Source: a virus. From it: a DNA stretch of 48,557 nt. The translations under genes and the position numbers were made by a program. Shown piece by piece: positions 4,617 to 8,209 of this stretch (position 1 is its first letter; the number at the start of each line of letters is the position of its first letter). The notes below the pieces were generated by a model. That model was not told where the DNA came from. It did not search any database and worked only from the letters and a program-made list of their open reading frames with translations. The stretch covers positions 1 to 48,557 of IMG/VR virus record IMGVR_UViG_3300025101_000036; one strand, written 5' to 3'.

Positions 4617-4671
4617 GAGAAACTGTATTGGTTGATACAATAATTAATTAAAATAAGGTTTTAAATACCTT

Positions 4672-4679
4672 TATAAATA
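4672..4679 (+). promoter_or_regulatory. T4 late-type promoter box TATAAATA
   Basis: An exact TATAAATA 56 bases after the preceding stop. Transcription from it would run into the regulatory block rather than into an obvious late gene. It could be a chance match in AT-rich DNA. An odd palindrome, AAGGATA-G-TATCCTT (4696-4710), sits about 17-31 bases downstream. Confidence 0.3.
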
Positions 4680-4740
4680 TATTTCTGTGTTTTATAAGGA
4701 TAGTATCCTTGAGTATCCATTTGTAATCCTCTGAGGTGTT

Positions 4741-4842
4741 GTGGACTTAGCGAGCGTACCATGCAGAGGGCGTTTCGTCAACCCACAAGGCGAAAATTTC
4801 TGGAAATCAGGACATAAAAAGTCATCGAGATCTTCGTGTTGA
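4741..4842 (+). CDS. Possible small protein, 33 aa (GTG start)
   Basis: A 33-residue frame from GTG 4741 to TGA 4840-4842, preceded by GAGG four bases upstream. The predicted peptide has CRGRF, NPQGENFWKSG and HKKSSRSSC. It is basic and more protein-like than expected from chance. A second overlapping frame from ATG 4761 (begins MQRAFRQPTRRKFLEIR) is equally short, so the coding assignment is uncertain. This segment is clearly more GC-rich than the flanks. The stop lies inside the -35 region of the downstream promoter. Confidence 0.25.
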   Translation: MDLASVPCRGRFVNPQGENFWKSGHKKSSRSSC

Positions 4843-4930
4843 CTTCGTGTCTTATTCGTGTTATAATCTAGTCGAGATCTGTTCGAGATCTTCGTGTTTG
4901 CTCAACTAGATTTTCGTGTTACATTCGTGT
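4833..4930 (+). repeat. TTCGTGT repeats, mostly 11-bp spaced
   Basis: Six copies of TTCGTGT start at 4833, 4844, 4855, 4891, 4913 and 4924. The first three are exactly 11 bp apart. The last three are offset by 22 and 11 bp. Copies 1 and 6 run directly into the -35 boxes of the two promoters (TTCGTGTTGAC). Copy 3 runs directly into a -10 box (TTCGTGTTATAAT). The regular spacing puts copies on the same helix face, as expected for binding sites of a regulator. Confidence 0.75.
4839..4867 (+). promoter_or_regulatory. Strong sigma-70 promoter P1
   Basis: TTGACT (5 of 6) at 4839-4844, a 17-base spacer, then a perfect TATAAT at 4862-4867. It lies among the TTCGTGT repeats. Its -10 box overlaps an inverted copy of the operator-like sequence (4866-4878). 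Confidence 0.75.
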
Positions 4931-4993
4931 TGACAATCTCGACTAGATCTGCTATAATATTCATATAACATCAAATGAATCTCGACTAGATCT
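4866..4993 (+). promoter_or_regulatory. Operator-like repeats (ATCTCGACTAGATCT)
   Basis: The 15-mer ATCTCGACTAGATCT occurs identically at 4936-4950, inside the P2 spacer, and at 4979-4993, immediately before the ATG at 4995. Their spacing is 43 bp, about four helical turns. A 13-base inverted copy (ATCTAGTCGAGAT) lies at 4866-4878 over the -10 box of P1. The site has ATCT-N5-AGAT dyad arms. The placement at the polymerase-binding sites of two promoters suggests repressor binding; no binding protein is identified. Confidence 0.6.
4930..4958 (+). promoter_or_regulatory. Perfect sigma-70 promoter P2
   Basis: TTGACA at 4930-4935, a 17-base spacer, then TATAAT at 4953-4958: an exact consensus. 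Positions 4936-4950 of the spacer are one copy of the operator-like 15-mer. Transcription would start near 4965 and read the 42-codon ORF at 4995. Confidence 0.9.
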
Positions 4994-4994
4994 C

Positions 4995-5123
4995 ATGCAT
5001 ACAGAAACAGAACTAGATTCTCATCTAGACGAGATCTACGCATCATCATATGATGATCTAGATGACGCATATGCACGTCTCGATGTATCATATGAGGCAC
5101 TAGCATATAAGCACTATGCATAA
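4995..5123 (+). CDS. Small acidic protein, 42 aa
   Basis: A 42-residue frame from ATG 4995 to TAA 5121-5123, the first ORF downstream of the perfect promoter P2. The product is acidic (11 Asp/Glu against one Arg and one Lys), with a Tyr/Asp-rich segment SSYDDLDDAYARLDVSYEAL that could form an amphipathic helix. I do not recognise a family. An acidic peptide made at high level early could mimic DNA or bind host polymerase, but that is speculation. Its coding DNA contains a perfect 16-bp palindrome (5042-5057). The start is preceded by an operator-like repeat rather than a clear ribosome site. Confidence 0.5.
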   Translation: MHTETELDSHLDEIYASSYDDLDDAYARLDVSYEALAYKHYA

Positions 5124-5325
5124 TCATATGTTACACATATTATAGCATGTGCACTTTATGATGTGGCACAGCATGTGACAGTATGTGAACTGGCACATAT
5201 GGCATGACACTATGAGATGTGGCATAGGATGTGCCACTTGAGAAACTGTATTATACATCGGAATGTGCCGATTTGTCAAGCGTCCTTGTGACAGTTTGAG
5301 AAGTGGCACATAGGCATTAATATTT
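5124..5325 (+). other. Hairpin- and repeat-rich non-coding stretch
   Basis: No convincing gene. The stretch is packed with variants of TGGCACA (5164, 5191, 5304) and TGTGACA (5174, 5287), plus inverted TGTGCCA (5230). Short inverted repeats include GTGGCA/TGCCAC with a 7-base loop (5219-5237) and ATCGG/CCGAT with a 6-base loop (5257-5272). It could be a structured 3' untranslated region or a small RNA transcribed from P2, or a protein-binding array. TGGCACA-type words also occur after the stops at 5768 and 7387. Confidence 0.4.
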
Positions 5326-5522: not shown

Positions 5523-5768
5523 ATGGAGCATACCCGAATTTCCCAGATGATTTTTCAGATTGATGAGCATACTCAGATCGAAGCAGCGTACAACCCAACA
5601 GGGGATTATGTGTCTTTGAGAGAAGTTTCAGCAGGTGGCGACCCTGTGGAGGATTTTGTAGATTATGATCCAATCCACGGAGCGAGCAGTCAGGAGATGT
5701 CTACAATATGTGATGAAATCCTACAATCTATGAGAAACATTTACGCCCAACAGGATGCCAACTGGTAA
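5523..5768 (+). CDS. Hypothetical protein, 81 aa
   Basis: An acidic 81-residue soluble protein beginning at ATG 5523. It has an N-terminal strand-rich part (RISQMIFQIDEHTQIEAAYN), a Gly/Asp-rich middle and a C-terminal helix (TICDEILQSMRNIY). The family is unknown. It is followed by an intrinsic terminator (5783-5804), so it is the last gene of its transcript. Its codon use is more GC-rich than that of the genes on either side of this cassette. Confidence 0.65.
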   Translation: MEHTRISQMIFQIDEHTQIEAAYNPTGDYVSLREVSAGGDPVEDFVDYDPIHGASSQEMSTICDEILQSMRNIYAQQDANW

Positions 5769-5782
5769 ACTGTCACACATAA

Positions 5783-5804
5783 CCCCTATTCTTCGGAGTG
5801 GGGG
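5783..5804 (+). terminator. Intrinsic terminator with TTCG tetraloop
   Basis: CCCCTATTC pairs with GAGTGGGGG (9 pairs, two of them G-U) around the very stable tetraloop TTCG at 5792-5795. An AT-rich tail (ATTATTATTAAT) follows. It ends the transcript of the 5523-5768 gene. Confidence 0.75.
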
Positions 5805-5837
5805 ATTATTATTAATATTATTCACACATTCCCCGAC

Positions 5838-6125
5838 ATGATTAATTCAGACAAAGTAGGACACACATTTTGGATTGACCAGAACGGCATTTTCCAATCT
5901 GCTCCGACCTTTGCCGATGGAACACCCGATCTTGACAATGCCATTCCCGTGGAGGACTGGGAGGGTGACGACCTAACCATTGAAGAGTTTACAGACGTTA
6001 TCCGCATTTTTCAACGTCTATCTTCTCGCAGGGTGACAGGCGTGGGCGGTACTGGTATTAACTCCGCAGGTATTCATCAGGACTCTAAGGGTAATTTTTA
6101 TTTCAACCCTGTGACAGTTGACTAA
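5838..6125 (+). CDS. Hypothetical protein, 95 aa
   Basis: An acidic 95-residue protein. The N-terminal part (DKVGHTFWIDQNGIFQSAP) and the C-terminal part (GIHQDSKGNFYFNP) look like beta-hairpins. Between them lies an acidic helix (DDLTIEEFTDVIRIFQRL). No family is recognised. It is flanked by intrinsic terminators on both sides and so forms its own transcription unit; I could not find a convincing promoter for it. Confidence 0.65.
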   Translation: MINSDKVGHTFWIDQNGIFQSAPTFADGTPDLDNAIPVEDWEGDDLTIEEFTDVIRIFQRLSSRRVTGVGGTGINSAGIHQDSKGNFYFNPVTVD

Positions 6126-6649: not shown

Positions 6650-7171
6650 ATGACCGCAACTCCCCTTTCTTTCGTTGAATACTTTAACCAGCAGGAGGAC
6701 AAGCACATCCGCACTGAGTGGATAAAGCACGTTAACGACCTTCTCAACTTTGTATTTGAAGAGGGTGAGGATTTATTCCTTAATCTTAAGGGCATCCGCA
6801 TAGCAGCAGACGCACTATTAGAAGGCGACCTTGAATGGGATCAGATCTCTGAATTTGTTTCAGATCACGGCATTGCCGAACTGCCTTACATCCTTGAATA
6901 CTTTGAGGCAGTAGAAAATACTACCAAAGAAGTTGTAGAGGATTTCTTAGAGGAGCAGTGCGGCGACTGTGCCTACTGTGAGCATGTAGAGGATGCCTAT
7001 CACGGATGTTGGGAATCAGGAGCAGACTACGCTCAAGAGTTGGTTGAGGACTGCTTCTTTGAGAATAAGAACCCTTGGTGGGTAGAAACCGATTGGAACG
7101 CCACATGGGAGAACCTTTCACAAGATTACTGGATCTCTGAGAACGGACACGTTTTCTCATACAACTTTTAG
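6650..7171 (+). CDS. ArdA-like antirestriction protein (putative)
   Basis: A 173-residue very acidic protein. The C-terminal half has an arrangement reminiscent of ArdA antirestriction proteins: an AYHGCWESGADYAQELVEDC segment, which recalls the ArdA 'AYxGExdSxxdYAeel' motif, then PWWVETDWNATWENL and a terminal DYWISENGHVF, which recalls 'iDwexxaxdlxxDY...g.vf'. ArdA is a DNA mimic that inhibits type I restriction enzymes. The length (173) and strong negative charge fit. The N-terminal half is poorly matched and contains CGDCAYC, which is not typical. The gene has its own terminator downstream. Family assignment is from memory of the motif and is moderate. Confidence 0.55.
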   Translation: MTATPLSFVEYFNQQEDKHIRTEWIKHVNDLLNFVFEEGEDLFLNLKGIRIAADALLEGDLEWDQISEFVSDHGIAELPYILEYFEAVENTTKEVVEDFLEEQCGDCAYCEHVEDAYHGCWESGADYAQELVEDCFFENKNPWWVETDWNATWENLSQDYWISENGHVFSYNF

Positions 7172-8035: not shown

Positions 8036-8209
8036 ATGCAAAAAAATATCCCAAATCAAAAACGCCCCATAGAGATTGATACTGCAACAGGAGAATACCT
8101 ACTAAGAATACCAGAGTGGGTTATAAATGATCAAGGTTGGTACGAAGACACAGAAGTAACCTTTAAAACAGATGGCGATGAACTCATCATTACAGAATCA
8201 GAGGACTAG
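8036..8209 (+). CDS. Small AbrB-like protein, 57 aa (tentative)
   Basis: A 57-residue frame from ATG 8036 to TAG 8207-8209. The pattern GEYLLRIPEWVINDQGWYED followed by TEVTFKTDGDELIIT recalls the swapped-hairpin AbrB/SpoVT fold (beta, 'IP', helix, 'GW..G..', beta, beta). Proteins of this fold bind DNA as dimers and act as transition-state regulators or antitoxins. The protein lacks the usual basic N-terminal strand, so DNA binding is doubtful. It is preceded by its own promoter and overlaps the next gene by 38 bases. Confidence 0.5.
   Translation: MQKNIPNQKRPIEIDTATGEYLLRIPEWVINDQGWYEDTEVTFKTDGDELIITESED

Follow-up and report, generated by a model that had tools for sequence, protein, structure and literature searches.

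The window analysed here is the complete 48,557-nucleotide stretch of the IMG/VR virus record IMGVR_UViG_3300025101_000036, a fragment of a T4-like cyanophage with the Prochlorococcus phage P-SSM2 and the single-cell virus AG-345-F15 as close relatives. Table 1 lists the features of the locus: two promoters (P1 and P2) upstream of a small open reading frame (ORF1), four copies of a 13-bp palindrome (dyads 1 to 4) and two single half-sites. It also includes one small gene located further downstream.

Table 1. Positions of promoters, repeated sites and genes in the window.
Feature	Position	Strand	Remarks
Promoter P1, TTGACT-17-TATAAT	4839-4867	+	promoter scan 11/12, extended -10 TG
Promoter P2, TTGACA-17-TATAAT	4930-4958	+	promoter scan 12/12, extended -10 TG
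Dyad 1, ATCTAGTCGAGAT	4866-4878		covers the final two bases of the P1 -10 box; conserved in P-SSM2
Dyad 2, ATCTCGACTAGAT	4936-4948		in the P2 spacer; position conserved in other phages
Dyad 3, ATCTCGACTAGAT	4979-4991		at about +20 from P2, just before the ORF1 start codon
Dyad 4, ATCTAGACGAGAT	5023-5035		inside ORF1; codon-level constraint in the family
Single half-site CGAGAT	4826-4831	+	upstream of P1
Single half-site CGAGAT	4884-4889	+	between P1 and P2
ORF1, 42-aa acidic protein MHTETELDSHLDEIYASSYDDLDDAYARLDVSYEALAYKHYA	4995-5123	+	homologue of PSSM2_098
57-aa AbrB/MazE-fold protein, PHROG 661	8036-8209	+	candidate binder (weak)

A first-pass annotation of this DNA had proposed both promoters, with 17-bp spacers and near-perfect or perfect boxes, and the promoter scan recovered them at the same positions. 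It had also reported an identical pair of 15-mers. The 15-mer ATCTCGACTAGATCT is indeed present in exact form at 4936-4950 and again, 43 bp further on, at 4979-4993, where it ends one base ahead of the ORF1 ATG at 4995; such a pair appeared in only 0.06% of Markov-simulated regions and is thus far beyond chance. An inverted 13-mer over the P1 -10 box was verified by direct reading (Dyad 1). The sites had been described as an ATCT-N5-AGAT dyad within 4833-4993. They are real, but the true repeat unit is the full 13-bp palindrome ATCTMG-W-CKAGAT, consisting of two CKAGAT half-sites around a central A or T, and the array runs past 4993 into the small coding sequence, where the fourth copy is located.

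The window (48.5 kb) contains four copies of the 9-bp dyad core (at 4868, 4938, 4981 and 5025) compared to 0.53 expected occurrences under a Markov-1 model, and none of 5000 Markov-simulated regions held four or more cores. All four 13-bp dyads of the window are confined to 4866-5035, and six of its eight CGAGAT half-sites fall at 4826-5035. When up to 3 mismatches were permitted we counted 10 matches to the repeat compared to 1.73 expected, a number that was reached by none of 100 shuffles.

The surrounding sequence showed several other characteristics. A leftward promoter of perfect consensus (TTGACA-18-TATAAT) is present on the minus strand at 5250-5279, in antisense orientation to ORF1. 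An inverted repeat of another sequence, ATCGG-N6-CCGAT, is located in its spacer, and the promoter is not obviously conserved in P-SSM2. The words TGGCACA and TGTGACAG recur in intergenic stretches around the array (5130-5320 in the window, contig L196 and 4320-4400 in contig L179) and are common to these phages. About 1.5 kb downstream of ORF1 a 173-aa ORF (6650-7171) matches a PHROG named anti-restriction protein with an E-value of 2e-13.

Conservation and distribution of the array

We aligned the array region of the window with P-SSM2, AG-345-F15 and a third relative. The dyads and P2 are unchanged across all three. In P-SSM2 the boxes of P1 are gone, yet the dyad at P1 is kept, as is the single half-site at 4826-4831. 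The dyads are therefore better conserved than the promoter boxes, which is the opposite of the pattern that the first-pass annotation had named as speaking against its reading, namely conserved boxes without conserved 15-mers. The homologous array of P-SSM2 sits between PSSM2_097 and PSSM2_098, and the complete genome (252,401 bp) contains four strict dyads, all at 66030-66169. Searching the remainder of the genome and the relatives, as had been suggested, thus found dyads that are clustered in one stretch (140 bp in P-SSM2) and conserved. Upstream of the array, in non-coding sequence at 4647-4724, about 70 bp are 92-94% conserved in P-SSM2 and P-SSM5, and a T4-type late promoter TATAAATA lies there at 4672-4679.

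We then scanned IMG/VR for a dyad followed by 7-14 bases, TATAAT, 12-36 bases and a second dyad. At least 120 contigs matched, compared to a single one with a scrambled palindrome; a scan with TAATAT was not a clean control because TAATAT overlaps TATAATAT in true arrays. The exact 15-mer had 51 matches in IMG/VR, which overall is near chance, and it was the roughly one third of them located in arrays that revealed the array family. Arrays occur in many viruses of ocean and lake cyanobacteria, the named carriers being P-SSM2/P-SSM5, the Synechococcus phages S-T4 and S-SRM01 (reservoir isolate) and AG-345 single-cell viruses. Starting from a conserved downstream gene we reached 13 loci for which 5 kb or more of sequence was available upstream, and 10 of these had a dyad or half-site array. 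No array was detected in ten named genomes (P-SSM4, Syn9, S-PM2, P-HM2, S-SSM7, S-CRM01, S-TIM5, S-SSM5, S-SM2 and T4), with Syn9 and S-SSM7 showing stray single dyad matches only. A search for analogous palindrome arrays in Syn9, P-SSM4, S-PM2 and S-SM2 yielded none, which is a weak test as it used exact 5-bp arms and missed the P-SSM2 array too.

Apart from stray single matches, each array-bearing genome carries one to three arrays, all within a few kb. The S-T4 record NC_048049.1 lists the array twice (2777-2934 and 174346-174503, 171,569 bp apart), probably due to end redundancy left in the assembly. Arrays of at least three dyads were encountered 35 times away from a recognised ORF1, a set that includes a few main arrays in which ORF1 is absent or has diverged, and TATAAT was lacking in 27 of the 35. 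In S-SRM01 and several contigs secondary arrays are found about 1.5-7 kb from the main array, and several end in a dyad directly before the start codon of a small gene. The missing TATAAT implies that the putative binder would also sit where there is no obvious promoter, so that promoter occlusion would not explain everything.

Array and ORF1 travel together. We found 96 arrays with ORF1, nearly all of them with TATAAT (94 of 96), and no ORF1 in the four array-lacking genomes that were checked. In 91 of 109 array loci ORF1 is followed by a second small gene (MSVAQKR.VQVTLD.., PHROG 12516), for example at 2837-2991 in L057, 4126-4299 in L179 and 4273-4434 in L178; it was not seen in the window or in P-SSM2. 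The 13-mers in four forms had no match in the papers searched and neither array nor ORF1 is mentioned there, most subscription journals lying outside that search; Sullivan et al. (2010) describe no such palindromes in their main text (PMC3037559). The array is a real, conserved cis-regulatory element linked to a new small protein family and apparently undescribed.

Array geometry and promoter placement

Across 78 non-redundant arrays the dyads showed preferred spacings of approximately 21-26, 30-33, 39-44 and 59-68 bp, or more narrowly about 24, 31-32, 42 and 62-67 bp, with troughs in between. These values are close to 2, 3, 4 and 6 helical turns, which suggests that the sites lie on one face of the helix. 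A strict helical period was rejected: the preferred spacings are real, but no single period fits them.

In about a hundred contigs the dyads occupy fixed places relative to sigma-70-type promoters. Usually one dyad fills the -35/-10 spacer and the next is found just upstream of the ORF1 start codon. The gap between the dyad core and TATAAT is typically 7-8 bases (6 in the window); among the matches listed this distance was observed in 78 of 94 cases, the permitted range of 7-14 being set by the search. Promoters with a dyad in the spacer have TTGACA or TTGCAA at 17 bp from the -10 box and often an extended -10. S-T4 deviates in that its dyad does not lie in the spacer but takes the -35 position, and the promoter in question lacks a good -35 box. 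In contigs L357 and L383 direct half-sites (C)TACGAGAT stand in for most dyads at the corresponding promoter positions, as does ACTAGATYT in contig L330. As half-sites are kept where the dyad is lost, the half-site rather than the palindrome is probably the unit recognised.

Forward repeats of a different type, TTCGTGT(T), occur six times in 4833-4931 with a spacing of 10-36 bp, including three steps of 11 bp. L330 has ten TTCGTG copies at 5568-5845 and P-SSM2 has few, so the repeats are clade-specific. Repeats of this type are often located immediately ahead of a -10 or -35 box.

We interpret the dyads as an operator array for a putative sequence-specific protein that most likely represses the ORF1 promoters, and consider this reading reasonably probable. 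It seems rather unlikely that the dyad-bound protein instead activates or re-times the promoters, for example as a middle-mode factor replacing the missing MotA/AsiA. Such a role would suit cyanomyoviruses, which have no homologues of alt, mod, motA and asi and whose early and middle control was described as unresolved by Clokie et al. (2010), with no middle promoter found in P-SSM2 (PMC2984593), and it would suit the S-T4 dyad in place of a good -35 box. However, most promoters with a spacer dyad are near-consensus and thus should not require an activator, and no MotA box (TGCTTTA) was found at the array.

The arrays could also be iterons, belonging either to a replication origin or to some other nucleoprotein structure (a partition or packaging site), with the promoters only providing primer RNA. 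The small number and close grouping of arrays per genome, the secondary arrays without a promoter and the iterated palindromes lying partly within a coding gene, as in the lambda origin, are consistent with this idea. We nevertheless regard it as unlikely given the strict register of the dyads with the -10 boxes and the lack of arrays in most cyanophages with a T4-like replication apparatus. The GC skew of P-SSM2 does not switch at the array either, a weak test as nearly all genes run one way.

ORF1 and the constraint on its codons

The 89 sequences of the ORF1 family have a mean length of 51 aa and a net charge of -13.7, are DLDE-rich with frequent acidic repeats and end in LAYRHYA. ORF1 is annotated as hypothetical PSSM2_098 in P-SSM2 and carries no annotation in S-T4 or S-SRM01; comparison with Pfam, PHROG, NCBIfam and PADLOC gave no family match at a meaningful score, so the family is named by no library. 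The predicted structure has no usable fold (pLDDT 59.6) and only a short C-terminal helix. Differences in the last ten codons are mostly synonymous, with an approximate dN/dS of 0.08 from a crude all-pairs count, and on this basis ORF1 very likely is a real protein.

The dyads continue inside ORF1, where they encode LDE in frame. LDE is written CTC GAC GAG in 118 of 145 cases compared to approximately 0.06% predicted from the codon usage of the large genes of the window, whereas the Leu of LAYRHYA is encoded by CTC in only 1 of 88 cases. This extreme codon choice reflects selection at the DNA level on the sites within the coding region, which are kept through rare codons. The in-frame LDE and the frequent acidic repeats might suggest that the dyads are a mere by-product of repetitive LDE-rich acidic coding or of spreading neutral repeats. 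We judge this very improbable: CTC is extreme for the Leu of LDE and not for that of LAYRHYA, the dyads are found again at set positions in promoters and in arrays outside coding sequence, and relatives swap them for half-sites at the same places. An action at the RNA level, in which base-paired repeats would govern how the ORF1 message is translated or degraded, is hardly credible. Pairing between dyads is possible and the start codon has a dyad immediately upstream, but four transcripts folded no better than shuffles (z = -0.94, 0.10, 1.22 and 0.67), no Rfam match was found and several dyads are upstream of the start site.

Candidate binders, putative mechanism and comparison with known systems

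We compared the gene content of five array-bearing and five array-lacking genomes and obtained mostly structural and unknown small proteins and no clear DNA-binding candidate. PHROG 3252 and a gene for an AbrB/MazE-fold protein of 57-63 aa stand out, a few kb downstream of the array, the latter being syntenic in 41 of 49 loci. The model predicted for the copy in the window (pLDDT 83.5) has a swapped-hairpin fold with MazE and AbrB as best solved matches (probability 1.00, E-values 0.05-0.2), and the predicted fold match is convincing by topology. However, its family is also present in array-lacking phages and has an acidic consensus (IEVDPVTGEY), while the DNA-contact face of MazE is basic, which leaves it as a weak candidate only. 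Across 84,980 prokaryote genomes we detected 59 scattered matches to paired dyads, many of them in GC-rich contigs; none was titled cyanobacterium and none had ORF1. For paired sites, as distinct from single host sites, this argues mildly for a phage-encoded binder.

The first-pass annotation had suggested that the locus looks like a repressor/operator switch. The operator part of this suggestion is backed by conservation, promoter placement and the retention of rare codons in the coding sequence; repression is proposed from the geometry. From the sites we infer a protein that would recognise CKAGAT half-sites, usually as inverted pairs, and would occupy several of them, from the -35/-10 spacer through the start region into the opening codons of the ORF1 operon. 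The near-consensus sigma-70 promoters seem constitutively strong and should be used at once on infection by unmodified host RNA polymerase, so binding would most likely shut them off, and sites in the spacer and start region are classic positions for steric repression. ORF1 might then be made in a short early burst or be held down until the protein is removed. The promoter-less arrays about 1.5-7 kb away may serve as auxiliary sites for looping or as a roadblock to elongation. More speculatively, a lytic T4-like lineage may possess a true operator switch with the operators superimposed on the coding sequence of an acidic protein, the DLDE-rich product acting on the same circuit, for example as an anti-repressor that counters the operator-binding protein through acidic DNA mimicry; we hold this to be a tentative possibility.

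The array has the appearance of a regulatory switch and offers a concrete, testable control site in the cultivable phages P-SSM2, S-T4 and S-SRM01 as well as in about a hundred environmental contigs. T4 middle promoters are similar in that the host polymerase uses promoters with a phage-specific element in their -35/-10 region. They depend on a MotA box at about -30 and on motA/asiA, whereas the array has a different sequence, intact -35 boxes and no TGCTTTA. The iterons of the lambda origin and T4 oriE are iterated palindromes partly inside a coding gene, as observed here, but the array differs by its strict promoter register, by the presence of up to three arrays per genome and by its absence from most relatives with the same replication genes. 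AbrB and MazE autoregulatory sites are palindromes at a promoter, and an AbrB/MazE-fold gene does lie a few kb downstream of the array; it is, however, separated from the array, belongs to a family that is also present where arrays are lacking and has an acidic consensus at its predicted DNA-contact face.

The stoperators of mycobacteriophage L5 are 13-bp asymmetric sites bound by one protein, at promoters and at promoter-less intergenic places, and are scattered genome-wide. The array shares the site length and the two kinds of position (27 of 35 without TATAAT), but most of its sites are palindromes, and they are grouped within a few kb, in one to three arrays, rather than scattered. In the OR/OL regions of lambda several palindromic operators lie over strong sigma-70 promoters with further operator groups a few kb away, and the array has the same arrangement. 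It differs from them by its 13-bp odd palindrome with CKAGAT half-sites, by more sites, some of which are inside the regulated coding sequence, by no repressor gene being recognised adjacent to it and by the strictly lytic T4-like phage type. With iterated, conserved and sequence-specific sites that overlap promoter contact regions, the array appears to work like a repressor/operator region and can be placed putatively in that class.
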